Of a stretch of 58,739 bases of DNA, positions 23,170 through 38,228 are shown piece after piece. Numbering within the stretch: the stretch's first letter is position 1; every line of letters starts with the position of its first letter. Both the position numbers and the translations under genes were made by a program. The stretch is from Spirochaetota bacterium (GTDB taxonomy: Bacteria > Spirochaetota > Spirochaetia > B11-G9): positions 1-58,739 of the forward strand of contig JAJRQE010000026.1 in assembly GCA_024280415.1 (NCBI GenBank), in the 5' to 3' direction. The notes under the pieces were generated by a model. The model saw only the letters and a list, made by a program, of their open reading frames with translations. It did no database searches and was not told the DNA's origin.

Positions 23170-23694
23170 CTATTCTTCGGTAGTTGTTGTCTCTTCAGCA
23201 GAATCTTCAGCTTTCACTTCAGCTTTCACTTCAGCTTTCACTTCAGCTTTTGCTTCCTTTGGTTCAGATTGAGTTTTCATTTCCGATTTTTTGGATTTGG
23301 TTTTCCCGGAGTCCTTTTTATCAGATCCGGAATCGCCATCTTTTTCAACCAATTCAAGAATAACCAGCTCTGCAGCATCACCCTGCCTATGTCCCAGCTT
23401 AAGTACTCGTGTATAACCGCCAGGTCGTTTCTCGTTTCTGGGAGCTATCTCTGTAAAAAGCTTAGCAAGAATATCTTTATCCTTAATATCTTTTGCAATT
23501 TGTCTTCGATTATGTACCGAATCAATTTTTGCTTTAGTTATCATTTTCTCTACAGTTCTCTTTACAGCAAGAGCTTTCGACTTAGTTGTTGTTATACGTT
23601 CATATCTTAAGAGAGAAGTAGCCATATTCCTATGCAGAGCTTTTCTGTGACTTGTTTTTAGTCCAAGCTTATTGAACCCTACTCTATGCTTCAT
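23170..23694 (-). CDS. rplQ: 50S ribosomal protein L17 with acidic repeat tail
   Basis: About 174 residues. The first ~115 are standard L17 ([20 protein letters not shown], then [20 protein letters not shown]). The remaining ~60 form a Lys/Glu/Ser-rich tail with a V-K-A-E repeat encoded by a 12-bp tandem repeat (plus-strand TTCAGCTTTCAC). I choose the ATG at 23694, matching the usual L17 start. It overlaps the last codons of rpoA. The tail is much longer than in typical L17. Confidence 0.95.
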
Positions 23695-24739
23695 TTTCTT
23701 CTTCCTCATTCATTTCGAGTTTTCTGGAAGTTTTCAGGACACTATAGTCAGTCATCCCCAAACTTAAATTCCACTCTTTTAGTTTTTCTTTTATTTCAAG
23801 TAACGATTTCTTTCCAAAATTTCTAGTTTTAGCTATTTCATCCTCAGATTTTCTGGTTAAATCGCCAATTGTTCTGATATTGGCATTTTTCAAACAATTG
23901 CTTGACCGTACGGAGAGTTCCAGTTCCTCAACGGGTGTTACAAGGATAGATTTAATTCTTTCCTCTTCCTCGTCAATTTCTTCGTCTCCAGTAACTGCAT
24001 CCTCATCGAAATTGATAAAAATTGTAAAATGATCTTTAGCAATTTTAGCTGCTTCTGCAAGGGCATCAGCAGGACCAAGTGTGCCATTGGTAAAAATTTC
24101 AAGAATCATTTTATCATAATCGTTACGCTGACCAACACGGGTATTCTCTATAGAATAACGTACACGCTTGATAGGTGAAAAAATAGCATCTATCGGTATT
24201 GTTCCTATGACATCAATATATTTTTCATTTATTTCAGAAGGGACATAACCACGTCCATGATCAACCTGTATTTCAAAATCAATTTTAGCTTTGTCCATCA
24301 TTGTGAATAATTCAAGATCACCATTTGTTACTTCAACACCTTCACTTTTTCCAAAAACCTCACCCTTAACGATACCCGGACCACTTAGTTCAACAAGTAT
24401 CGTCATTTGGTCTACGCCTTCTGGTAGTTTTATCTGCAGATGCTTCAAATTGTTCAGTATTTCCGGTGTATCCTCTGATACCTCAGCTATTGATTCAAAT
24501 TCACTTGATATCATATGGGGTGTACCGTCTTCATTATAAGTAGTGATCTTTACAGCCGAAATAGCAAATCCCTGAATTGAGGATAACAGAATCCTTCTCA
24601 GAGTATTAGCAATTGTGGTACCGTATCCACGTTCAAACGGATACGCTATAAACTTCCCATAATTGGTGTCTACTTCGCTATGCTCAAAAGTTATCCCTTT
24701 CGGCATTTTAAATCCCTTCAAAAGGTTTTTCTGCGCCAT
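23684..24739 (-). CDS. rpoA: RNA polymerase alpha subunit
   Basis: The 351-residue protein has the N-terminal dimerisation domain, including [20 protein letters not shown], and the C-terminal domain ([20 protein letters not shown], then [13 protein letters not shown]) that contacts UP elements and activators. It ends in an acidic tail. It starts [13 protein letters not shown], similar to what I recall for spirochaete alpha. It sits between rpsD and rplQ as usual. Confidence 0.98.
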
Positions 24740-24747
24740 GCAAACTC

Positions 24748-25383
24748 CTATCTAGAATAAAGTTCTACGATTAACTGAACATTTACATCAAGAAGATCAT
24801 TTACTTCACTTCTTTGTGGAAATGCATTAATTTTGCCTTTCATTTCATCTGGATTTAGATCCATCCATGGATACACACCTGATTTTGTGTATTCTTTAAG
24901 GCTTTCTTTAATTACAACCATTTTCTGACTTTTAGCCTGTACCGATACCTCGTCGTTTAATTTTAAACGATAGGATCCGATTGTAACTCTCTTACCATTA
25001 ACCAGAATATGTCCGTGTGAAACAAGCTGTCTTGCCTGTTTTCTGGAAGAAGCAAACCTCATCCTGTAGACTGTATTATCCAACCTTCTTTCAAGTAAAG
25101 TTATCAGGTTGTCACCGGTCTTTCCCAGTAATCTGTCAGCTTCCTGGAATGTAAGTTTAAACTGCTTTTCAAGCATTCCAAAAGTTCTTTTCAATTTCTG
25201 CTTTTCCCTAAGCTGGATTCCATAATCAGAACGTTTTTTTGCTCTAAACCTTGGACCCTTACCTGGAGGGCTTGCTTTTTTTGCTATTGGGCACTTGGCA
25301 CTATAGCATCGCTCCCCTTTGAGAAAGAGCTTTGTATTCTCAGCCCGGCAAAGCCTACACTGAGGACCTACATATCTTGCCAT
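24748..25383 (-). CDS. rpsD: 30S ribosomal protein S4 (zinc-ligand form)
   Basis: The 211-residue protein has an N-terminal region with four cysteines (CRLC at residues 9-12, C26, C31), a zinc-binding form, then an S4 domain ([20 protein letters not shown], then [13 protein letters not shown]). S4 is a primary 16S rRNA binder and, in other bacteria, a translational repressor of the alpha operon. It lies 8 nt before rpoA. Confidence 0.97.
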
Positions 25384-25395
25384 TCTTTTACCTCT

Positions 25396-25773
25396 TTATA
25401 CTCTTCTTGTCTTTTTAGGTCTGCAACCATTATGAGGGATGGGTGTGACATCCTTGATACTTCTTACCAGAAGACCAAGATTACCCAAAGAACGTATTGC
25501 CGATTCACGCCCTACTCCAGGACCCTTGACAAATACATGAACCTCTTTTAAGCCAAAATCGATGGCTTTCTTAGCTGCAGTTTCTGCAGTTACCTGTGCT
25601 GCATAAGGTGTAGATTTTTTTGCGCCGCGAAAACCTAACCCTCCTGCACTTGCCCATGAAACCGCATTTCCATTTAAATCTGTAACAGTAACAATTGTAT
25701 TGTTAAAGGTAGCCTGCACATAAACATTTCCTTCATATACAGTCTTCTTCGTTTTCTTTTTAGTTTTAGCCAC
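25396..25773 (-). CDS. rpsK: 30S ribosomal protein S11
   Basis: 125 residues with the S11 core [20 protein letters not shown] and the C-terminal [16 protein letters not shown]11 forms the platform near the 3' end of 16S rRNA. Length and position between rpsM and rpsD are standard. The short Lys-rich N-terminus is usual. Confidence 0.98.
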
Positions 25774-25788
25774 TTATATCCTCCAACC

Positions 25789-26154
25789 TTACTTCTTCTT
25801 TCCTGCTACTGTCTTCTTCTTTCCCTTTCTGGTTCTTGCATTCGTTTTTGTCCGCTGTCCCCTTACAGGAAGGCCTCGTCTATGCCTAAGTCCTCTATAA
25901 CAACCTATATCCATTAATCTTTTAATATTAAGAGCTGTCTGAGTTCTAAGTCTTCCTTCCACAGTATAATCACTGTCAATTGCTGCTCTAATCTGATTTA
26001 TCTCTTCAGAAGATAAATCATTAATTCGGATATCAGTATCAATTCCTGTTTTCTTACATATTTCAACAGCAGAAGTTCTGCCGATTCCATAAATGTATGT
26101 CAGTGCAATTTTAACTGCCTTATTCGGAAGGTCTATTCCTGAAATTCTTGCCAT
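25789..26154 (-). CDS. rpsM: 30S ribosomal protein S13
   Basis: 121 residues with [20 protein letters not shown] at the start and [20 protein letters not shown] near the end. S13 lies in the 30S head and contacts tRNA and the 50S subunit. It follows rpmJ directly, without infA in between. Confidence 0.98.
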
Positions 26155-26167
26155 TTAGATGATCCCC

Positions 26168-26281
26168 CTACCTCTGCCTCTGCTTATGTTTGGGATTCTC
26201 ACAAATAATTCTGACAACCCCTTTACGACGTATTACCTTACACTTATCACACATAGGTTTAACACTTACTCTTACTTTCAT
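26168..26281 (-). CDS. rpmJ: 50S ribosomal protein L36
   Basis: The 37-residue product begins [20 protein letters not shown]. The zinc ligands are C11, C14, C27 and H32 (C-x2-C-x12-C-x4-H), the zinc-binding form. It follows secY and ends 13 nt before the rpsM start. Confidence 0.97.
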
Positions 26282-26292
26282 ATCTTTATCCT

Positions 26293-27615
26293 CTATAAGT
26301 TCCTAGATCTGATCTTACCTTTTTTCATGATTCCATCATGATGATGCATCCTGAGATGACCCTCAATCTGGGACATTGTATCCAAATCAACACCTACCAT
26401 AATTAACAATGAAGTACCACCCATTAACATTGCTACAGCGATTGGAAAATTAAAAAGCTTCTGTACAATAGTTGGTATAATAGCTATAAAAGCTAAAAAC
26501 ATTGAACCGGGTAATACAATCCTGTTTAATATTTTTGAAAGATGTTCTTCCATCTTCTCACTTCGTATACCTGGTATAGAACCTCCATTTTCCCTTATCT
26601 GTTTTGCAATTTCTACCGGATTTAGTGTGACCTGAGTATAAAAATATGCAAAAAATATAATCAGTAATGTATAGATTATAATATAAGGTGAACCCTGAGG
26701 TCTCAGCCAATATGAAAAACTTGCAAGCCATTTTACTTCAGGTCCAAGATTTCCTGCTATCTGTAAAGGAAAAGTTAAAACAGATGAAGCAAATATAACT
26801 GGAATAACACCCGAAGGGTTTATTTTAAAAGGAATGTATGTACTTTGAGCACCATACATTTTTCTTCCAACTACACGTTTTGCATAGTTAACCGGTATCT
26901 TCCGCTGCCCCTGCTGTTCATAAATTACAAGTGCTACAACCGCAACAAACATTGCTATAACAATAATAACATGAACAGTATTTATCTCACCGCTTTTTAC
27001 CATTCTAAAAAGTGTTATAAAGGCATTGGGCATACGCGCTACTATACCTGCAAAAATAATAAGTGATATGCCATTACCCTCTCCACGCTGGGTTATCTGC
27101 CCTCCGATCCATATAAGAAAAACAGTTCCGGTTGTTACTGTGAGCATTGCAATAATCGTATACTGCAGACGCCCCATAGTAATAGCATTCGGGATTGAAT
27201 TAGCATATACAGTTACAACATATGACTGAAGAATACATATTACCAGAGTTGCATAACGGGTAATACGCTGAACTTTCTTTCGTCCGCCATCTTCTTCGGA
27301 CATCCTCTTAAGAGAAGGAATAACCAGCAATAGAAGCTGCATAATAATCTGCGCAGAGATGTAAGGCATTATACCAAGCATAAAAATAGAAAAGTTCTTG
27401 AATGCACCACCGGCAAAGAAATCTATATACTCTGTAATACCAATATTACTGGATCCCTGCTGAGACATAAAATATAGTTTTAAAGCATTGATATCAATTC
27501 CGGGAATCGGTAAAGTTGCACCCAGTCGAAAAACAATAAGCATAGAAATTGTAAAAAATATCCTCTGCCTTAATTCTTTGACCCTAAATACATCTATGAA
27601 CGCATTATTAGCCAT
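26293..27615 (-). CDS. secY: Preprotein translocase subunit SecY
   Basis: The 440-residue protein has about ten membrane segments and the SecY hallmarks: [16 protein letters not shown] (TM2), [13 protein letters not shown], and [20 protein letters not shown] in the ribosome-binding loop region. It forms the protein-conducting channel with SecE (50065-50244). The start overlaps the rplO end by 8 nt. adk and map, often next to secY, are absent here. Confidence 0.98.
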
Positions 27616-28063
27616 TATTACCTTCTTTAATTCCGATCACCGTTCCGCCGGCTTTTTCAATTTTTTCTTTTGCCCCGGCAGTTATTTTCTCTACCTGAAC
27701 TTCAAGTTTAATTTTGAGATCACCATTACCAAGGATTTTTACCAGATTTTTTTTACCTTTTAATAAACCCTTTTCTCTAAGAGAACCAGTGTTAACCACA
27801 TCACCATCCTTAAATTTCAACTCAAGGCTTGAAACATTAACTATTGTATACTCTTTTTTGAAGGGATAATTAGAAAAACCTCTATGGGCAATTCTTCGAT
27901 AAAGAGGCATCTGACCACCTTCAAACCCTGGTCTTGTTCCACCTCCGGATCGTGAATTCTGGCCGTCATGTCCTCGCCCGGCAGTTCTTCCTTTGCCGCC
28001 CTTACCACGGCCTACAATTGTTTTCTTTCTGTTGGCACCTCGGGGTGCTTTTATCTGATCCAT
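27608..28063 (-). CDS. rplO: 50S ribosomal protein L15
   Basis: 151 residues with the glycine/arginine-rich N-terminal extension (GRGKGGKGRTAGRGHDGQNS) and the globular part VNVSSLELKFKDGDVVNTGS. L15 is a late-assembly 50S protein whose extension enters 23S rRNA. It lies between rpmD and secY. Confidence 0.97.
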   Translation of the reverse strand: MDQIKAPRGANRKKTIVGRGKGGKGRTAGRGHDGQNSRSGGGTRPGFEGGQMPLYRRIAHRGFSNYPFKKEYTIVNVSSLELKFKDGDVVNTGSLREKGLLKGKKNLVKILGNGDLKIKLEVQVEKITAGAKEKIEKAGGTVIGIKEGNNG

Positions 28064-28065
28064 GA

Positions 28066-28263
28066 TTATTTGATCTCCTCAACTTTCACAAGATGTGATA
28101 CTGTGTTGACCATGCCCATGATAACAGGATTCATTTCCTGTTCAACAGTACTGTTCATTTTCTTTAAACCAAGAGCTTTAACTGTTTTCCTTTGTGCAGG
28201 CAAACGACCTATTACACTCCTGACAAGTTGTATACGTATTTTTTTAGCCTTCTTCTTAGCCAT
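28066..28263 (-). CDS. rpmD: 50S ribosomal protein L30
   Basis: About 65 residues beginning [20 protein letters not shown], with the usual [20 protein letters not shown] segment. The ATG at 28263 is chosen; a frame from 28275 would overlap rpsE. L30 is a small 50S protein found in many but not all bacteria. Confidence 0.96.
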
Positions 28264-28265
28264 CA

Positions 28266-28754
28266 CTAACCCCACATCTCGTCAAGGGATTTACCCCTGT
28301 TCTTTGCAATCTCTTTGGCATCAAAAATGTTTTCAAATCCATTAAATGTAGCCTTAACAATATTCATTGTATTTTTTGATCCCAGAGATTTACTTAAAAT
28401 ATCATGTATACCGCAAGCTTCCATTATTGCTCTTACAGGACCTCCTGCTATAACACCGGTACCTGGTGAAGCAGGCTTAAGGAGAACACTTGCACTTTTG
28501 AAGTTACCAATTATTTCATGGGGTATAGTAGAATTTTTTACAGGAACAGTAATAAGATTTTTCTTTGCTTTTTCAATGCTTTTTCGAATTGCCTCAGCTA
28601 CATCATTCGCCTTTCCAAAACCAAAGCCTACTCTTCCGTTCCGATCACCAACTACCATAAGGGCAGAAAATGAAAATCTTCTACCACCCTTAACTACTTT
28701 AGCAACTCTGTTAAGCTTTATGAGCTTTTCAACAAACTCTTTATCTTTATCCAC
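28266..28754 (-). CDS. rpsE: 30S ribosomal protein S5
   Basis: 162 residues. The S5 double-stranded RNA-binding domain is visible as [20 protein letters not shown] and [20 protein letters not shown]. The C-terminal part carries [21 protein letters not shown]5 takes part in decoding accuracy and is the spectinomycin-resistance locus in other bacteria. Confidence 0.98.
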
Positions 28755-28762
28755 ATTCCCCC

Positions 28763-29122
28763 CTAAAACTTAATGCCGGATTTTCTGGCACCTTCAGCAA
28801 TACCTTTAACTATACCGTGATATAGATAGCCATTCCTGTCAAAAACAACAGTTGATATTTTTTTAGCTTTTAGTCTGGCACCTATTTCAGTACCTAATTT
28901 TGTTGCATTCTCAACATTGTTCTTTAAATCTTTAAAAGAAGCTTCCATTGAACTGACAGATGCAATAGTATTTCCTGCAATATCATCAATTACCTGAACA
29001 TACATGTTTTTTGAACTTCTAAAGACAGTCATCCTGGGTCGTACTGTTGTACCGGAAATGGATTTACGAATATGTTTTTTTCGTCTTTGTCGTCTTTTAC
29101 CTTTTTCTTCAACTCTTTTCAT
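28763..29122 (-). CDS. rplR: 50S ribosomal protein L18
   Basis: 119 residues with a basic N-terminus and the L18 core [20 protein letters not shown], ending [20 protein letters not shown] and ARKSGIKF. L18 bridges 5S rRNA to the 50S central protuberance. Standard place between rplF and rpsE. Confidence 0.97.
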
Positions 29123-29130
29123 ACCCGAAC

Positions 29131-29670
29131 CTACTTAATACCCGATTTTCCGATTTTTCTTCGGATTGTCTCTTCTTCGTATTTAATACCCTTGCCTTTA
29201 TATGGCTCAGGTGGACGAAGAGATCTTATCTCAGCACATGTCTGACCAACTTTCTGCTTATCTATCCCGGAAACAGTAATTTTATTGGTGCCTTCGCAGC
29301 TAATGGTAATATCATTACTGATGTAATATTCAATCTGAGTAGAAAATCCCAAATTTAAAAAGAGAATTTCTCCTTTTACTTCTGCACGATAACCAACCCC
29401 GTTAATTAATAACGACCTGGTAAATCCAACAGATACACCCGTAATCATATTCCTGACCAGCTGTCTATACAAACCATGGAATGCATGAGACCTTTTAGAA
29501 TCGTTTTTTATTCCAACGATTACTTTATCATCTTTTACTTCGAAAGCTACCTCAGGTTGAAAATCCTGAGTAAGCTTCCCTTTGGGCCCTTCAACTGTAA
29601 CTAAATTATCAGTTGTGCTTACCTTTACACCCTGAGGTATCTGGACCGGTAATTTACCAATTCTTGACAT
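29131..29670 (-). CDS. rplF: 50S ribosomal protein L6
   Basis: 179 residues with MSRIGKLPVQIPQGVKVSTT at the start, VEGPKGKLTQDF, and the C-terminal signature RPPEPYKGKGIKYEEETIRR. L6 lies near the factor-binding stalk of the 50S subunit. Normal length and order. Confidence 0.98.
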   Translation of the reverse strand: MSRIGKLPVQIPQGVKVSTTDNLVTVEGPKGKLTQDFQPEVAFEVKDDKVIVGIKNDSKRSHAFHGLYRQLVRNMITGVSVGFTRSLLINGVGYRAEVKGEILFLNLGFSTQIEYYISNDITISCEGTNKITVSGIDKQKVGQTCAEIRSLRPPEPYKGKGIKYEEETIRRKIGKSGIK

Positions 29671-29682
29671 ATTTACCTCACC

Positions 29683-30081
29683 TTACCATACAGAACAAAT
29701 CAGTTCACCACCGACTTTTTGTTCTGAAGCCTTTCTGCCTGTAATTACACCAGTTGATGTTGATACAATAACAATTCCGTGACCATTGTAAATTCTGGGC
29801 ATTTTTTTATATCCCATATAAAATCTCCTACCAGGAGTAGAGATTTTTTTCAGGCCGTGGATAATAGGTTTATCAGTAGTATCATATTTCAAAAATATTC
29901 TGATACTATTAATATTATCCTTGGTGGTCTTCTTAAAGTTTTTAATATATCCCTCATTTTTAAGTATCTTAACTACTTCAAGCTTTAACTTTGAAGTGGT
30001 TACATCTACTTTTTCGAAACGCGCACTACTGGCATTACGAATTTTTGTAAGCATATCTGCTAAAGGATCTGATACTGACAT
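29683..30081 (-). CDS. rpsH: 30S ribosomal protein S8
   Basis: 132 residues with [20 protein letters not shown] at the start and the C-terminal [20 protein letters not shown] and [12 protein letters not shown]8 is a primary 16S binder and, in E. coli, the repressor of the spc operon. Normal place. Confidence 0.98.
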
Positions 30082-30091
30082 TTCGTTCTCC

Positions 30092-30277
30092 CTACCAGCT
30101 TGATTTTGTTACACCTGGAATCAGACCTTCACTGGCCAGTTTCCTGAAACAAATCCTACACATCTGGAATTTCCTCATATACCCTCTGGGTCTTCCACAT
30201 ATACGACACCTATTAACAATACGTGTACTGTATTTTGGTTTCCGCTGGGCTTTTATAATCATAGATTTTTTTGCCAC
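30092..30277 (-). CDS. rpsN: 30S ribosomal protein S14, zinc-binding short form
   Basis: The 61-residue length is the short (type Z) S14. The zinc motif is C-R-I-C ... C-R-I-C, within [20 protein letters not shown], and the end is [10 protein letters not shown]. It lies between rplE and rpsH. Confidence 0.97.
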
Positions 30278-30288
30278 AATTAAACTCC

Positions 30289-30840
30289 CTACTTCCTAAA
30301 AGGCATACCAAGTTTTTTTAAAAGCACCCTTGCTTCCTGATCTGTATTGGCTGTTGTAACAATCGCAACATTCAGTCCGCTGACTCTTTCAATTTTATCA
30401 TAATCAATTTCAGGAAATATTATCTGTTCTGTTATTCCCATTGAAAAATTACCATGTCCGTCAAAAGCATTAGGATTTATTCCCCTAAAGTCCTTTATTC
30501 GTGCAATAGCAACATTCATCAACCGATCCAGAAACTCCCACATTTGATTTCCCCGAAGAGTAACCTTAGCTCCAATCTCGACACCTTCACGTAATTTAAA
30601 ATTAGAAATTGACTTACGAGCTTTCGTCTTTACCACATGCTGACCGGAAATCAGCTCCAGTTCTTTTACAGCAGATTCCAAAAACTTTTTATTAGAGATT
30701 GCATCACCCACCCCTACATTTAGAGAGACCTTTTCAATACGAGGAATCTCCATTACGGATTTGTAACCAAACTCTTCAAAAAGCTCTTTTGACACCTGCT
30801 GCTTATAAAGCTTCTTCACATTAGGTACATACTGTTCCAT
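30289..30840 (-). CDS. rplE: 50S ribosomal protein L5
   Basis: 183 residues with [20 protein letters not shown] near the start and [20 protein letters not shown] and [13 protein letters not shown] later. L5 binds 5S rRNA and contacts P-site tRNA. Its ATG overlaps the stop of the shifted rplX frame as TAATG. This supports the view that rplX was recently, or actually is, one continuous gene. Confidence 0.98.
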
Positions 30841-31159
30841 TAGAGCACTTCTCCAGTTTTCCTGGCAAATCTTACTTTCTTGCCATTCTCAAATTTATAA
30901 CCAATCTTAGTCACCTGACCGCCTTTTGTAGTCATTGCAACATTGGAAATATGTAGTGGTGCTTCAATTTCAATAATTCCACCCGTATCCTGCTGACTCT
31001 TTTTCTTAGCGGCCTTTTGACCATATTAAGTCCCTGCACAATAACTCTTCCACTAACTCTGTCAATCTTTAATACACGTCCGGTTTTACCTTTTTCTTTT
31101 CCGGTCAAAACCTTTACTGTATCATCTTTTTTTATTCTGGTTTTCATTTTCTCTTTCAT
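30840..31159 (-). CDS. rplX: 50S ribosomal protein L24, interrupted by a one-base deletion
   Basis: The reading frame from 31159 (AAGGGG upstream) gives a normal L24 N-terminus, [20 protein letters not shown], then IVQGLNMVK. It then runs into unrelated residues and stops at 30932. One frame over, the sequence continues as L24: [40 protein letters not shown], ending at a TAA (30842-30840) that overlaps rplE. Restoring one A in the coding-strand run AAAA (plus-strand TTTT 31015-31018) would rejoin them into about 106 residues. L24 starts 50S assembly. A sequencing error in a homopolymer is the simplest explanation; a real mutation or frameshifting cannot be ruled out. Confidence 0.9.
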
Positions 31160-31168
31160 GACAACCCC

Positions 31169-31537
31169 TTAAAGCACTTCCGGAGCGAGGGAAACGATCT
31201 TCATCTGACCTGCATCCCTCAACTCTCTTGCAACAGGTCCAAAAATACGCTTTCCCTTTGGATTACTATTTGCATCAATAATAACACAAGCATTATCATC
31301 AAAACGAATATACGTACCATCAGGCCTTCTGTATTCCTTCTTGGTTCTTACTATTACAGCTTTCTGAACTTCACCTTTCCTTATTGCCGCATTTGGTATA
31401 GCATCTTTAACCGCAACAACAATAACATCACCTATTCCGGCAATAGTTCGTTTACTTCCACCAAGAACCTTAATACACTGAACTCTTTTTGCGCCACTAT
31501 TATCTGCCACATTCAGATATGTCTGCATCTGTATCAT
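31169..31537 (-). CDS. rplN: 50S ribosomal protein L14
   Basis: 122 residues with [20 protein letters not shown] at the start and [20 protein letters not shown] near the end. L14 lies at the subunit interface and contacts 16S rRNA. Normal length. It ends 9 nt before rplX. Confidence 0.98.
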
Positions 31538-31555
31538 AACGCAACTCCTTTTATT

Positions 31556-31807
31556 CTATTTTGCCCGTTCAATAATCTCTGCCAAACGCCAGTGTTTATC
31601 TTTACTAACTGGTCTGCACTCAACTACTCTAACGGTATCACCTATCCGTGCATCATTCTTCTCATCGTGAGCCTTTACTTTTTTTGTACTTTTTACATAC
31701 TTCTTGTAAAGACTATGAAGAGTCTTTGTTGTAATAGCAATTACAATGGTTTTATCCATTTTGTCACTAACAACCTGACCCGTATAGGTTTTCTTATTTT
31801 CATCCAT
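31556..31807 (-). CDS. rpsQ: 30S ribosomal protein S17
   Basis: 83 residues with the S17 OB-fold pattern TYTGQVVSDKMDKTIVIAIT and IGDTVRVVECRPVSKDKHWR. S17 is an early 16S-binding protein. Standard place between rpmC and rplN. Confidence 0.97.
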   Translation of the reverse strand: MDENKKTYTGQVVSDKMDKTIVIAITTKTLHSLYKKYVKSTKKVKAHDEKNDARIGDTVRVVECRPVSKDKHWRLAEIIERAK

Positions 31808-31836
31808 TCCAAGCCTCTCTTATTTACTGATCTACC

Positions 31837-32037
31837 TTAATTCTTTCTGATCTTAAGGGCATATTCATGGATAATTGTATTTAACCGGGCAATAGTCCGG
31901 CGCACATACCTCAGTTCAAGAGGATTTTCCACATGTCCCATAACCTTATTAATACGAACATCAAGCAATTTTCGACTCAGCTCTTCTTTCTTTGCCAATA
32001 ACTCGTCGTATGTCAAATCATTTAACGAATCTTTCAT
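31837..32037 (-). CDS. rpmC: 50S ribosomal protein L29
   Basis: 66 residues, all helical, with [20 protein letters not shown] and the L29 signature [18 protein letters not shown]29 lies by the peptide exit and helps dock SRP and trigger factor. It starts 3 nt after the rplP stop. Confidence 0.96.
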
Positions 32038-32040
32038 CTT

Positions 32041-32457
32041 CTACTCCAGATCCCTTCTTGCAACTATCTTTGTCTTGATAGGCAGTTTATTACTTGCCAG
32101 AGTTAAAGCCTCTTTTGCAAGATCACTATCAACACCAGCCATTTCAAACATAACAGTTCCTGTTTTCACCACTGCAACCCATCCCTCAGGGTTACCCTTT
32201 CCCTTACCCTGCCTCGTTTCTGCAGGCTTTTTAGTATAGGGCATATGGGGGAATATTCTTATCCAGACCTTTCCACCCCTCTTAATCTTTCTTGTCATAG
32301 CAATTCTGGCGGCTTCAATCTGGCGATTTGTTATCCATTTCGGTTCCAGAGCCATAAGACCATATTCACCAAAAGAAACCTTATTACCCTTCTGTGCCAC
32401 ACCATCGCGCTTGCCTCTTTGAAGCTTTCTATATTTAGTTCTTTTTGGACTAAGCAT
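32041..32457 (-). CDS. rplP: 50S ribosomal protein L16
   Basis: 138 residues with [20 protein letters not shown] and the characteristic [20 protein letters not shown] and [17 protein letters not shown]16 organises the A-site side of the peptidyl-transferase region. Normal length. Confidence 0.98.
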
Positions 32458-32459
32458 AC

Positions 32460-33164
32460 CTATTGTCTCCCTCTGGGAGCCGGTTCACGCTTCTTTCGAA
32501 CAAGCAGACCGGCATCTTCCTTACGGTCATTTTTATAAACATCACCGTTATAGACCCAAACCTTAACACCAATCAATCCAAAGGTGGTTACAGATTCTGC
32601 AAATCCGTAATCTATTCCTGCACGAAAAGTATGAAGCGGGATTCTTCCATCCTTACTCCATTCTGTCCTTGCCATTTCAGCTCCACCAAGTCTTCCACTG
32701 ATTCTGATTTTTACACCCTGCACTCCGGCTTTCATTGCGTTGGCAACAGCCATCTTTAAAGTTCTTCGAAAAGAACCTCTGGTTTTAAGCTGTCTCGCAA
32801 CCCCTAAAGCAATCAACTGTGCATCAACTTCAGGCCGTTTAACTTCTTTAATTTTAATCTGAATCTTTTTCTTGGCAATTTTCTGAAGTCTTGCACCAAT
32901 TTTTTCAATATTGGCACCCTTTGCTCCAATAATAATGCCAGGTCTCGAGGTTTTTACAACCAGAGTAATTCGCTGAGGGTGTCTGATAATTTCAATATCA
33001 GAGATCTCTGCTCCCTTTGTTTCAGGAGAGACCATCATCTCTTTTCTAAGTCGAAGATCCTCATGGAGTGTATCACCGTATTCTCTGGGATCCACATACC
33101 ATTTGGACTTCCAGGTCTTATTAATACCCAATCGCATTCCTATAGGATTAACTTTCTGACCCAT
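32460..33164 (-). CDS. rpsC: 30S ribosomal protein S3
   Basis: 234 residues with [20 protein letters not shown], a KH domain ([20 protein letters not shown]) and the C-terminal [21 protein letters not shown]3 lines the mRNA entry channel. It lies between rplV and rplP. Confidence 0.98.
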
Positions 33165-33533
33165 CTACTCCCCCATACCTGTTATTTCATCTATTACAAC
33201 ATATATATGAGACATTCTTTTTAAAAGTATATCTCGTTTCCCCCGGGCTCTGGCCCAGACACGCTTCAACCTAGGTCCTTCATTTATCTGAATTTCCTTA
33301 ACATACAACATCTCTTCATCGAGCTTTTTATTCAATGACAAAGCGTTGGAGGCTGCAGATTTGATAACCTTCTTAAGAAAACCAGCACCCTTCTGAGGAA
33401 GGCTGTCTAAAATAGCCATTGCCTCTGTATATGGTTTCAACCTTACATTATCCGCAATTGGGCGAACCTTTGTGGGTGAAATCATGAGAAATTTAGCTGT
33501 TGACCTGTATACCTGTTTTTCTTCCATCCCCAT
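33165..33533 (-). CDS. rplV: 50S ribosomal protein L22
   Basis: 122 residues with AKFLMISPTKVRPIADNVR and the beta-hairpin INEGPRLKRVWARARGKRDI that lines the exit tunnel. The start may be 33533 or the ATG two codons on (33527). It ends one base before rpsC. Confidence 0.97.
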   Translation of the reverse strand: MGMEEKQVYRSTAKFLMISPTKVRPIADNVRLKPYTEAMAILDSLPQKGAGFLKKVIKSAASNALSLNKKLDEEMLYVKEIQINEGPRLKRVWARARGKRDILLKRMSHIYVVIDEITGMGE

Positions 33534-33535
33534 AC

Positions 33536-33817
33536 CTATCTCTTTCTCATTTTCTTATCTGAATATGCATGTCCCCTATACATTCGGGTTGGTGCAAATT
33601 CACCAAGCTTATGACCAACCAGGTTTTCTGTTATAAATACAGGAACCCATGATTTCCCATTGTAAACTGAGATTGTATAACCTACCATCTCAGGAATTAT
33701 TGTAGAAGTTCTTGAATAAGTCTTAAGCATCTTCTTATTCCCGGACTTACTAGCCTCAACAATTCGCTTGTAGAGTTTTTTCTCGATAAACGGACCCTTT
33801 TTAATTGACCTTGACAC
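33536..33817 (-). CDS. rpsS: 30S ribosomal protein S19
   Basis: 93 residues with [20 protein letters not shown] and [20 protein letters not shown] then [14 protein letters not shown]19 lies in the 30S head beside S13. Standard place after rplB. Confidence 0.98.
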
Positions 33818-33826
33818 TTGTCACTC

Positions 33827-34651
33827 CTACTTCCGTCTCTTAACAATAAACTTGCCAGAAGCTTTTTTCTTCTTACGTGTTTTGTAACCCTTTGTCGGAA
33901 CACCCCAGGGTGTTACAGGATTACGACCACCTGATGTCTTACCTTCACCACCACCATGAGGATGATCATGAGGATTCATGACAACACCTCTAACCTTAGG
34001 TCGCTTTTTCATCCATCTCGACCTTCCGGCTTTACCGATATTGACATTCATATGATCTTCATTACCAACCTCACCGAGGGTAGCATAACACTTACCAAAA
34101 ATCATTCTTGCTTCACCAGAAGGAAGTTTAACAGTTACGTAATCTCCCTCTTTTGCCATAATGGAAGCACCTGTTCCAGCAGACCTCACAAGCTGACCAC
34201 CTCTGCCATACTGCAGCTCCACATTATGAACCCTGACACCTAAAGGCATCTTTTCCAACGGAAGAGCATTTCCTGCTTCCAGATCAGCATCAGGGCCACT
34301 CATAACTACTTTACCCACTGTCATGGATTTTGGTGCAAGAATATATCGCTTATCACCATCATAGTAATTAATAAGAGCTATGTTTGCAGATCTGTTAGGA
34401 TCGTATTCAATAGATACAACCTTTCCAGGAACTCCATATTTATCCCGTTTAAAGTCAATAACACGATATTTACGCTTATGACCTCCACCCCGGCGCCTGA
34501 CACTAATTCTGCCACCTGCACCGCGTCCAGCCTTAAAAGAAAGACCACTGGTAAGGGACTTTTCGCTGCCAGTTCTGGTTATCTCTTCGAATGTCAGACT
34601 TGCTCTGTACCTCAGACTCGGTGTCCGAGGCTTGTATGTCTTAATTCCCAC
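33827..34651 (-). CDS. rplB: 50S ribosomal protein L2
   Basis: 274 residues. The N-terminal [19 protein letters not shown], the RNA-binding OB/SH3 domains and the C-terminal [20 protein letters not shown] are present. The last includes the histidine near the peptidyl-transferase centre. Length is standard. Confidence 0.98.
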
Positions 34652-34685
34652 TTAAAATCTCCCTGGGCAGAATCGTCAAACGACT

Positions 34686-34991
34686 CTAAACACCCTCGAT
34701 AATTTCAATTTTATTCCCTTCAGCAAGGGTAACTATAGCCTTTTTCCATGGAGTAGTACTTCCGGAACGAATTCCGGATTTAGTACGCGACTGCCTGGGC
34801 TTGGCTTTTACATTAATAATTCTGCATTCAACCGGCTTAACAGAAAAAAGATTCTTCACAGCATCCATTATCTGGAGCTTATTGGCTCTGGGATTAACTT
34901 TAAAAGTATATTTTACCTTACCATCAACTTCCCGCATACTATTCGTCTTTTCTGTGAGCACGGGCTCAATAATTATTTGATCATATCGCAT
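34686..34991 (-). CDS. rplW: 50S ribosomal protein L23
   Basis: 101 residues with IIIEPVLTEKTNSMREVDGK and YTFKVNPRANKLQIMDAVKN. L23 sits at the tunnel exit and docks trigger factor and SRP. Its stop is 34 nt before rplB. Confidence 0.97.
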   Translation of the reverse strand: MRYDQIIIEPVLTEKTNSMREVDGKVKYTFKVNPRANKLQIMDAVKNLFSVKPVECRIINVKAKPRQSRTKSGIRSGSTTPWKKAIVTLAEGNKIEIIEGV

Positions 34992-35002
34992 AAATTGCCC
35001 CT

Positions 35003-35632
35003 TTACTCAGTACCGTAGAAATCATTAAGATTCCCAACTGCAGTTTCAAGTATAAGCACATTCTTTCCATAGAAAAGTGTATGTGCACTCAGTCTGTTGT
35101 ATGTCAGGAACTTAAGCCAGGGGATATTTTTCCCTGCCCGCCTTAACATCTTGTCATCATCTTTCAGAATAAGTACGGTAGATTCATCTTTAACAAGAGC
35201 CTTAAGGAGACTTGTCAAATCCCTGGTCTTACCGGACTCAACTGTAAAATCCTCAACGACTTTTATCTTTTCCTGCTTCACCTTGAGTGATAATATTGAT
35301 TTCATTGCAAGACGCTTCATTTTTTTAGGCATCTTGTAGCTGTAATCTCTTGGCTTTGGACCAAAAATGGTTCCCCCACCTACCCAAACCGGAGATTTCT
35401 TGTCACCGGATCTAGCATGACCGGTTCCCTTCTGCCTCCAGGGTTTTGCATTACTACCCCTTACTTCTCCACGTGTTTTTGTACTGGCAGTGCCCACTCT
35501 TCTGTTGGCAAGTTCATTATTGATCGCATAATAAATAGAACCTTCACTAACTTCTCTGCCAAAAACATCATCTTCAAGAGTAATATTCTTTATCTCTTCG
35601 CCTTTAACCGAAAAGACTTTTGTTTCCATCAT
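35003..35632 (-). CDS. rplD: 50S ribosomal protein L4
   Basis: 209 residues with the L4 tunnel loop TKTRGEVRGSNAKPWRQKGT and GHARSGDKKSPVWVGGGTIF. In E. coli L4 also represses the S10 operon through its leader. A hairpin before rpsJ here (36606-36640) is a candidate target, which is inference. Confidence 0.98.
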   Translation of the reverse strand: MMETKVFSVKGEEIKNITLEDDVFGREVSEGSIYYAINNELANRRVGTASTKTRGEVRGSNAKPWRQKGTGHARSGDKKSPVWVGGGTIFGPKPRDYSYKMPKKMKRLAMKSILSLKVKQEKIKVVEDFTVESGKTRDLTSLLKALVKDESTVLILKDDDKMLRRAGKNIPWLKFLTYNRLSAHTLFYGKNVLILETAVGNLNDFYGTE

Positions 35633-35638
35633 ATTCCT

Positions 35639-36259
35639 CTACTTCTTCTTAGCTTTCTTGACAATTACCACACCCTTATTAGGGCCGGGTACAGCGCCTT
35701 TTACCATAAGAAATTGTTTTTCTTCATCTATCTTAACAACCCTGAGATTCTGTACAGAAGTTCTGACACCACCCATTCTTCCCGGCATCTTAGTACCTTT
35801 GAATGTCCTGGAAGGAGTTGCCGCCATACCAGTACCTCCGAGTCCTCTATGGAATTTGGATCCATGAGTCGCCCGACCCCCGCCAAATCCATGTCGTTTC
35901 ATAACACCCTGATAACCTTTACCCTTAGATGTTCCTTCTACATCCACAAAGGAAAGATCTTTCAATATTTCTACATTAAAAGAATCACCTACAGCGACTT
36001 CAACTTCGAAATCCCTCATTTCCCTTAACACAACCTTAGGTGTTACCTTTTCTCCAAACTGACCGCCATACGGCTTTGTAACATGTTTAGACTTCTTGTC
36101 TATTGCACCTATCAGTTTCGCCTCGTAGCCGTTCTTCTCTTCACTTCTTTCAGCGACTACTACATTATCTTCTATTTTAATGACTGTTACAGGAGTTAAT
36201 ACTCCCCTTTCGTCAAAAACTTGCGTCATTCCGACTTTTCTGCCGATCAGCCCTAACAT
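35639..36259 (-). CDS. rplC: 50S ribosomal protein L3
   Basis: About 206 residues starting [19 protein letters not shown], with the signature [20 protein letters not shown] and [23 protein letters not shown] 36259 is chosen because GAGG lies 6 nt upstream; the frame four codons longer lacks this spacing. L3 initiates 50S assembly and reaches the peptidyl-transferase centre. Confidence 0.98.
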
Positions 36260-36287
36260 CTCATACCTCAATTAGTCTTAGCGTTAA

Positions 36288-36596
36288 TTACTGTTTAATC
36301 TCTACATCCACACCAGCGGGAAGCTCAAGCTTCATTAGAGCATCCATTACCTTTGATGTAGGATCAAGGATATCAATAAGCCGTTTATGTGTACGCATCT
36401 CAAATTGTTCCCGGGATTTCTTATTTACAAAAGGTGACTTAAGTACAGTATATTTATTAATTCTTGTCGGTAAAGGAATTGGACCGGCAACTTTTGCTCC
36501 AGCCTTTACTACAGTCTGCACTATTGCCTTTGAACTCTGATCTATAAGTTCTATGTCAAAACCTCTCAGCCTCACACGGATTCTATCCTTGGCCAT
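36288..36596 (-). CDS. rpsJ: 30S ribosomal protein S10
   Basis: About 102 residues starting [20 protein letters not shown], with [20 protein letters not shown] and [17 protein letters not shown]10 also partners NusB in antitermination. GGAGG lies 4 nt before ATG 36596 and is preceded directly by the U-tract of a hairpin. Confidence 0.98.
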
Positions 36597-36605
36597 TATT
36601 CCTCC

Positions 36606-36640
36606 AAAAATAAGTCCTGTACTCAATAAAGTACAGGACT
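36606..36640 (-). terminator. Attenuator-like hairpin between tuf and rpsJ
   Basis: The minus strand has AGTCCTGTAC, an 8-nt loop, GTACAGGACT, then TATTTTT and immediately the GGAGG of rpsJ. The 10-bp perfect stem followed by a U-rich tract can act as a partial terminator, an autoregulatory site or a processing signal for the S10 genes. Confidence 0.7.
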
Positions 36641-36649
36641 CTCAAAAAT

Positions 36650-37840
36650 CTATTCTTCAATTTCAGTGACCTGACCACTAGCTACAGTTCGTCCACCTTC
36701 ACGAATAGCGAATCTAAGACCTTTATCCATAGCAATAGGGTGAATCAGTTCAACGATTATCTCTGTATTATCACCAGGCATTATCATCTGCTTATCAGCA
36801 GGAAGGGTTACAGTACCTGTAATATCTGTCGTTCGAAAATAAAACTGGGGTCTGTATCCCGAGAAGAAAGGGGAGTGTCGACCACCCTCATCTTTGTTCA
36901 GAACATATACAGCACCAGTAAATTTTGAATGTGGAGTAATAGATTTTGGTTTTGCCAAAACCTGTCCACGAACAACCTCATTCTTATCTACACCTCTAAG
37001 GAGAGTTCCAACATTATCACCCGCCTGGCCTTCATCAAGAAGCTTATTAAACATCTCAACACCAGTACAGGTTGTAGTAGAAGTATCCCTAATACCAACA
37101 ATCTCCATAGGATCACCAATATGTATTACACCCCTTTCAATCCTACCTGTTACAACCGTACCTCTTCCCTGAATTGAGAAAATATCCTCAATAGGCATCA
37201 GAAAAGGAAGATCCACAGCTCTTTCCGGAAGTGGGAAATATGTATCCATAGCTTCGAGAAGTTCATCAATACATTTCGTCTTCTCCCCATCCTCAGGATT
37301 TTCCATAGCCTGAAAAGCAGAACCTTTAACTACAGGAGTCTCATCACCGGGAAAACCCTGCTCAGTAAGAAGATCTCTCATCTCCTCTTCTACAAGCTCA
37401 ATAAGATCGGGATCATCAACCTGATCAGTTTTATTAACAAAAACTATAAGTGAAGGAACTCCAACCTGTCTTGCAAGAAGAATGTGCTCTTTCGTCTGAG
37501 CCATAGCACCGTCTGTCGCAGCAACTACAATAACAGCACCATCCATCTGTGCAGCACCTGTGATCATATTCTTAATATAATCCGCATGACCTGGACAGTC
37601 TACATGGGCATAATGCCTCTTATCAGTCTGATACTCAACGTGACGCGTATTGATGGTTATGCCTCGGGCTTTTTCTTCCGGTGCATTATCAATATCCTCA
37701 TAACTCATTACCTTATCACCATGCTTGCGTGCACAATGCATAGTAATAGCCGCTGTTAGAGTTGTTTTACCATGGTCTACATGACCAATAGTACCAACAT
37801 TAATATGTGGCTTGGTTCTCTCAAACTTCTCTTTAGCCAT
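36650..37840 (-). CDS. tuf: Elongation factor Tu
   Basis: The 396-residue protein has all EF-Tu motifs: [15 protein letters not shown] (P-loop), [12 protein letters not shown] (switch I), [12 protein letters not shown] (switch II), NKTD, and the C-terminal domains ending [10 protein letters not shown]. It carries aminoacyl-tRNA to the ribosome. ATG 37840 is chosen because GGAGG lies 5 nt upstream. It follows rpsG after ~400 bp, without fusA, and precedes rpsJ. It has its own distal promoter and a structured leader. Confidence 0.98.
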
Positions 37841-37870
37841 CATTTCCTCCTTGTGTATACACACAATTAA

Positions 37871-37876: not shown

Positions 37877-37941
37877 TTACGAGCAAAGCCTATGCTTAAC
37901 GGCAAAACGCCGTAAATTCACAAATTACATCTGGAATTATC

Positions 37942-38122
37942 AAAAAAAGAGAAAAACAAGATTAGTAGGATCCAGAGGTCGATGTTCCGTGCCTTACACA
38001 CAAACATCGACTTGGCTGTATAAGTACAGCAACTGAAACCACCTAATCATCCCCGATTATGCTAACCTTCCGGACGACTGGTTTGGCTTAAGCAAGCCCT
38101 GTCCAACAAAAAGCAGGACAGT
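37942..38122 (-). ncRNA. Structured tuf leader / candidate attenuator RNA
   Basis: From the predicted start near 38122, the minus strand folds by eye into several helices. First come CTGTCC/GGACAG (38121-38099) and GGCTT/AAGCC (38098-38085). A long-range helix GATTAG (38048-38043) with CTAATC (37965-37960) then closes two hairpins: GCTGTA/TACAGC (38030-38015) and the 9-bp GTCGATGTT/AACATCGAC (38011-37978). The closing strand is followed by CTTGTTTTTCTC and seven T. The shape (junction closed by a stem, then a U-rich tract) suggests conditional termination ahead of tuf, or an independent small RNA of ~165-180 nt. It matches no RNA family I recognise. Confidence 0.45.
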
Positions 38123-38128
38123 TCGCAC

Positions 38129-38157
38129 ATATTATTCAAATCCCGGAACTTAGTCAA
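38129..38157 (-). promoter_or_regulatory. Promoter of tuf (distal)
   Basis: Reverse-strand TTGACT (38157-38152), 17 bp, TAATAT (38134-38129). Near-consensus at both boxes. It gives tuf and the S10 genes a leader of about 280 nt. Confidence 0.75.
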
Positions 38158-38196: not shown

Positions 38197-38228
38197 CCGT
38201 AGGGGCGAACGGCCGTTCGCCCCTACGG
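38197..38228. repeat. 32-bp perfect GTAG-type palindrome after rpsG
   Basis: The 32 bases are identical on both strands, with outer CCGTAGGGGC/GCCCCTACGG and core GAACGGCCGTTC. They begin about 8 bp past the rpsG stop and lie ~40 bp upstream of the tuf promoter. Ends and size match the palindrome at 16663-16694. It may also act as a stem at the rpsG mRNA 3' end. Confidence 0.85.

Follow-up and report, generated by a model that had tools for sequence, protein, structure and literature searches.

A conserved structured RNA element ahead of tuf and the S10 cluster in spirochaetes

We describe a structured leader ahead of tuf and the S10-spc-alpha cluster that is conserved across the spirochaete class, more widely than the sequence-only reading which drew attention to it could see. 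We are all but sure that it represents a new cis-acting structured RNA element, common to most lineages of the class, Treponema included. The element belongs among the structured leaders of translation operons. Near certain as an RNA family, it has a putative ligand and mechanism only. Probably it controls the amount of translation machinery made.

The window (the whole stretch of DNA analysed, 58,739 nucleotides) comes from the draft genome of an uncultured spirochaete. The leader, about 280 nt long, lies on its minus strand between rpsG, whose stop codon is at about 38237, and tuf, whose start is at 37840 (Table 1).

Distribution of the element and its linkage to tuf

Promoter, leader and leader position are kept in six genomes of the window's own family. 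From these six we built a covariance model (R1) of a 140-nt core, which matched 40 of 297 genomes of the class, exactly once in each. All 30 R1 loci that were fetched lie in sense orientation directly upstream of tuf, with rpsJ as the next gene. At three loci (L061, L062 and L064) no rpsG was seen upstream in the fetched stretch, that of L061 being ended early by the end of the contig. A second model (R2), built from 29 leaders, found 66 of 393 genomes of the phylum, again with a single match each. Among its fetched middling and weak matches, 18 of 20 are placed before tuf and two (L106 and L115) are not. One of the 18 is in a single-contig genome of 1.14 Mb, about the size of that of T. pallidum.

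Genomes without a match, or with a weak one only, were inspected in the 700 nt preceding tuf. About 20 of these 30 genomes have the core hairpin there, scoring above the best of 150 shuffles, the weakest of them marginally (12.4 against 12.1). Within the same 700 nt, it was not found in Borrelia-sized genomes (family f20) and several other families among the 30.

We then searched 84,980 species genomes of bacteria and archaea with a 43-bit pattern of the core. The pattern matched 67 stretches, 66 of them spirochaetal (Treponema vincentii, T. putidum, Sphaerochaeta halotolerans and Brucepastera are among the hosts) and one from Niastella, which is about what chance would give. The tuf start follows 101-282 nt downstream in 62 of the 67; of the remaining five, four end before tuf could be reached. 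Because of these results we conclude that the element is linked to tuf and, at the sensitivity of the scan, confined to spirochaetes. Since the pattern recovers 38 of 82 known leaders, about half, there is room for divergent relatives outside spirochaetes.

Searches of Rfam 15 with the window and four relatives gave no match to the leader at the gathering cut-off, and the matches admitted by a lax filter were all far below their cut-offs. No spirochaete tuf leader of this kind was found in a literature search whose scope left out subscription journals and supplements, and the surveys of leader and non-coding RNA candidates consulted mention neither spirochaetes nor such a tuf leader. The sequence-only reading likewise knew of no described riboregulator of this type at tuf.

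Architecture of the leader

The universal part of the element is a hairpin with the RNA consensus CCAAACC-N-stem-NA-GGUGG, whose stem covaries and whose loop measures 1-68 nt (148 cores, 112 of them distinct). At least seven contiguous stem pairs are present in 85 of the 112 distinct cores, a set partly found by a pattern that itself constrains the stem. In 40 leaders the core alone is 96.9% paired, with 19 doubly changed cells against 4.6 in shuffles; six pairs are altered on both sides, and the CC-AA-ACC / GGU-GG portion is invariant. When the core hairpin is taken together with the junction helix GGTTYCAG/CTGGATCC and junction hairpin H2 in 29 aligned leaders, 96% of cells are paired, and doubly changed cells number 40 against 13.4 in shuffles. 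Pairing falls to 29-52% when the partners are slid. The junction helix by itself is 98% paired in these 29 leaders. Compensatory base changes, on whose presence in relatives the original proposal had been staked, are thus found both in the core and in the three helices together.

Table 1. Features of the tuf leader and of the genes behind it in the window
Feature	Position	Strand	Remarks
Promoter TTGACT (38157-38152), 17-nt spacer, TAATAT (38134-38129)	38129..38157	-	9/12 consensus
5' hairpin CTGTCC..GGACAG	38099..38121	-	sequence variable; hairpin reformed in relatives through compensatory changes
Small hairpin GGCTT-GCTT-AAGCC	38085..38098	-	GGYT..RGCC in many relatives
Core hairpin CCAAACC-N-stem-loop-stem-NA-GGTGG	38039..38086	-	universal part of element; covariation
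Closing stem of the sequence-only reading, GATTAG (38048-38043) / CTAATC (37965-37960)	37960..38048	-	conserved in window's own family only
Three-way junction, helix GGTTTCAG (38040-38033) / CTGGATCC (37975-37968)	37968..38040	-	encloses two hairpins and conserved CYAHGTC / GACCTCTGG
Junction hairpin H1, 6 bp	38015..38030	-	variable
Junction hairpin H2, 9 bp	37978..38011	-	covarying GTCG/CGAC, GTCA/TGAC, GTTA/TAAC
U-rich tract	37942..37959	-	not conserved
Hairpin ACGGC-GTTTT-GCCGT, 3' part of leader	37899..37913	-	
Hairpin TTGTGT-GTAT-ACACAA abutting tuf Shine-Dalgarno AAGGAGG (37852-37846)	37846..37866	-	
tuf (EF-Tu), first gene after leader	36650..37840	-	
S10-spc-alpha cluster	23684..36626	-	rpsJ, rplD, rplW, rpsS, rplV, rpsC, secY, rpoA identified by model, not the genes between them
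rplV	33165-33533	-	identified by model; within cluster behind tuf

Most of what the sequence-only reading had claimed for the leader itself is borne out. It had proposed an independently promoted, structured and undescribed leader of about 280 nt for tuf and the S10 cluster, beginning with a near-consensus promoter after rpsG, and the promoter is there, about 80 nt past the rpsG stop. Sigma-70-like promoters with at least 9/12 consensus positions occur in 60 of 82 leaders, where shuffles would give 14.6. The two 5' hairpins and the 6-bp and 9-bp hairpins of the junction are likewise found, and the window leader folds with z = -2.35 relative to shuffles, 4 of 200 of which were equally low.

The outer boundary of this fold fared differently. 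The junction had been described as closed by GATTAG/CTAATC, a stem that does exist in the window and that six genomes of the window's own family preserve, one pair having changed in a compensatory manner; class-wide, however, 61% of its cells are paired, which slid controls match, and it was rejected as the conserved stem. GATTAG prefers to pair with the upstream ACCAGTCGTCC, in a helix for which 29 leaders show 99% pairing. Since GATTAG/CTAATC is kept only in the window's own family, it may be an alternative, peculiar to this lineage, to the core hairpin, with which it has the GATTAG strand in common. The U-rich tract said to follow the closing stem is present too, but even members of the same genus do not conserve it, one relative (G004) having AATTGTCTCTTAATAAATCC in its place.

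The modules around the core vary between lineages. The hairpin is retained in Treponema-like and some other lineages that have no junction. Many lineages have the three-way junction as well, and another hairpin that abuts the tuf Shine-Dalgarno sequence directly. Of 89 leaders, 29 show such a flush 7-bp hairpin, with covarying arms; at control positions the count is 14 of 445. Two leaders of family f23 (L066 and L109) retain the core hairpin and GGTGGTTCTG, and their second half is different (TTCTTAGCTGT..), which suggests replacement of the junction module. In f9 leaders such as L052, a second conserved block, GTTTGTCTCA and GGTAAAGGC..GCCTTTAT, lies between junction and tuf and comprises a hairpin devoid of a U-run.

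A perfect palindrome, CCGTAGGGGCGAACGGCCGTTCGCCCCTACGG, lies at 38197-38228 just past rpsG. It is a dispersed inverted repeat that recurs elsewhere in this genome and in four relatives (G001, G003, G004 and G005). At this particular site it is incomplete or absent in sister genomes.

Relation to 23S rRNA and to known leaders

In the 16S and 23S rRNA of E. coli, CCAAACC and AGGTGGT co-occur once, at 23S positions 1606-1624 (CCAAACCGACACAGGTGGT), which belong to H59a. With the leader profile this site scores 24.9, a value equalled by one of 200 first-order Markov sequences in a search that was post hoc. The same site in a spirochaete 23S rRNA (G194) reads ACAAACCGACACAGGTGGG and scores 17.4, equalled by 37 of 200 null sequences, which is not significant; the rRNA of another genome (G081) has GGTAGG. 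Leader and H59a share the arrangement CCAAACC-G-A...A-GGUGGU and the possible pairing pattern C-AA-ACC/GGU-G. They differ in that the rRNA has GACACA where the leader has a covarying stem and a variable loop, and spirochaete rRNA deviates at the outer positions. We regard the resemblance of the core to H59a as suggestive, its significance being modest. Comparison of the junction with 16S and 23S rRNA gave short matches only, as chance would. The loop of ribosomal protein uL22 is adjacent to A1614, the nucleotide at the H59a tip (PMC6685948). The genes for uL22 (rplV) and uL4 (rplD) are both in the operon behind the leader.

The nearest counterpart among known systems is the uL4 leader of the gamma-proteobacterial S10 operon, likewise a structured 5' leader of the S10 cluster, with suggested rRNA mimicry and, as here, autogenous control as the candidate function. 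That leader stands before rpsJ in enterobacteria and their relatives and acts partly via a Rho-independent terminator (PMC10931766). The spirochaetal element stands before tuf, is not enriched in terminators and has no Rfam match; the place before rpsJ in gamma-proteobacteria and the NusA-dependent terminator that define the uL4 leader were not found for it. Protein uS7 acts before its own cistron in the str operon (PMC10931766), and its site in rpsL-rpsG shares with our element the chromosomal neighbourhood and a translation-factor operon. Here, however, the element comes after rpsG, and in genomes with rpsG at another place it is still found at tuf. Since it remains attached to tuf-rpsJ and not to rpsG, regulation by S7, which the sequence-only reading had considered, is disfavoured. 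Attenuators in rpsL leaders of the S12-S7-EF-G-EF-Tu operon also head operons with tuf, but they are sited before rpsL; they are defined by premature terminators, in a text that does not mention spirochaetes (PMC2965389).

Two further candidates were rejected. The AGGUGGU-N-CC of the leader resembles the T-box sequence AGGGUGGNACC; no T-box match was obtained from Rfam and no specifier stem was seen, and, in contrast to T-box leaders, the hairpin lies 5' of the junction and its partner CCAAACC is nearly invariant. As for a leader peptide, the start-like CTATGTC is CCAAGTC or CCACGTC in relatives, and together with the variable loops (1-68 nt) this means that no reading frame is kept.

Possible modes of action

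From the U-rich tract, the sequence-only reading had derived either conditional termination of tuf and the whole S10 cluster or a stand-alone small RNA. Both are disfavoured, given a closing stem that lacks class-wide support, a tract that is not conserved and no enrichment of terminators. Terminator-like sites were counted in 10 of the 52 leaders that passed the filter, against 7.2 expected, and the stem/U-tract site of the window was not reported by the terminator scan; on these counts the leader does not qualify as an intrinsic attenuator, a type defined by a GC-rich hairpin and U-run that are mutually exclusive with an antiterminator. Although stem and tract exist in the window and the stem covaries within six family genomes, termination at the tract is thus very improbable, given the pairing class-wide no better than in slid controls and the tractless G004. 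A small RNA gene standing before tuf by accident might have just such a promoter of its own and a compact fold. It is scarcely credible nevertheless, because the element is almost always immediately upstream of tuf in sense (62 of 67 pattern matches, four more being at the end of a contig or locus) and occurs in single copy in each matching genome.

A riboswitch deserves more attention, though we consider it unlikely. Junction and invariant hairpin would bind a small molecule, perhaps a guanine nucleotide, whose level reports translation capacity, and would thereby turn tuf expression up or down. Unpaired and junction positions are indeed very highly conserved (CCAAACC, CYAHGTC, GACCTCTGG), and the window offers exclusive pairings of GATTAG and of the GG at 38039-38040. 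This GG, part of the core GGTGG, can pair either with the CC of CCAAACC or with the junction-helix CC at 37968-37969, which could constitute a switch. Against a riboswitch, Treponema-like lineages do without the junction while the hairpin persists, neither a conserved expression platform nor a terminator is seen, and the gene is always the same, in contrast to most riboswitch classes. Processive antitermination, in which the element would modify RNA polymerase for full transcription of tuf-S10-spc-alpha, would suit a position just behind a promoter and ahead of a very long operon reaching at least rpoA, as well as the lack of terminator enrichment in the leader; as Rfam reveals no similarity to known antitermination RNAs, we hold it to be a distinctly unlikely mode. 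Much the same low expectation applies to EF-Tu binding the leader, alone or with tRNA, and repressing its own synthesis. The element does always stand immediately before tuf, but rpsJ is always next in the inspected loci, which makes tuf inseparable from the S10 cluster as a target, and the core is like rRNA rather than tRNA. ARAGORN, run over the window, predicted tRNA-Trp and tRNA-Thr only, both elsewhere, and no tRNA-like gene or tmRNA at the leader.

The structured RNA stands directly before an operon in which candidate regulators are encoded, and autogenous control by a ribosomal protein of the S10 cluster is, tentatively, our best explanation. Ribosomal proteins commonly repress their own operons via leaders resembling their rRNA sites, rRNA mimicry being an established principle of such control, and uL4 controls the S10 operon of enterobacteria through a leader of this kind (PMC10931766). 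In our model the region would be the 5' leader of a tuf-S10-spc-alpha transcript started at its own sigma-70 promoter. A protein from the same operon would recognize the invariant CCAAACC / GGUGG hairpin, whose resemblance to the H59a hairpin beside uL22 makes uL22 the first candidate and uL4 the second. When in excess over rRNA, this protein would attach to the leader, and expression of tuf and the downstream genes would fall, most likely at initiation of tuf translation. Several points weigh against the model: the spirochaete 23S site does not stand out from the null, the leader has a stem where the rRNA has a loop, and the core is missing from Borrelia-sized genomes and some other families. 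Conserved sequestration of the tuf Shine-Dalgarno sequence, whose absence also counts against it, was rejected, as the predicted partners differ between species and none is consistent. To our knowledge, uL22 has not been recognized as an autoregulator in bacteria.

Much is known of how E. coli and Bacillus control the synthesis of ribosomes and EF-Tu; for spirochaetes we found nothing on this in the literature searched. It is conceivable, if still on the doubtful side, that the leader founds a new class of spirochaete RNA regulators, in which an rRNA-like hairpin heading tuf-S10-spc-alpha lets a tunnel protein such as uL22, or a new ligand, set the synthesis of EF-Tu and ribosomal proteins in Treponema and environmental spirochaetes alike. 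Being short and retained in most lineages of the class, among them cultured Treponema and Sphaerochaeta and a genome of T. pallidum size, the element offers a direct handle on control of the translation machinery. If the rRNA-mimic reading is true, a new autoregulating tunnel protein would have been named; if a ligand is found, the leader would represent a new riboswitch class.
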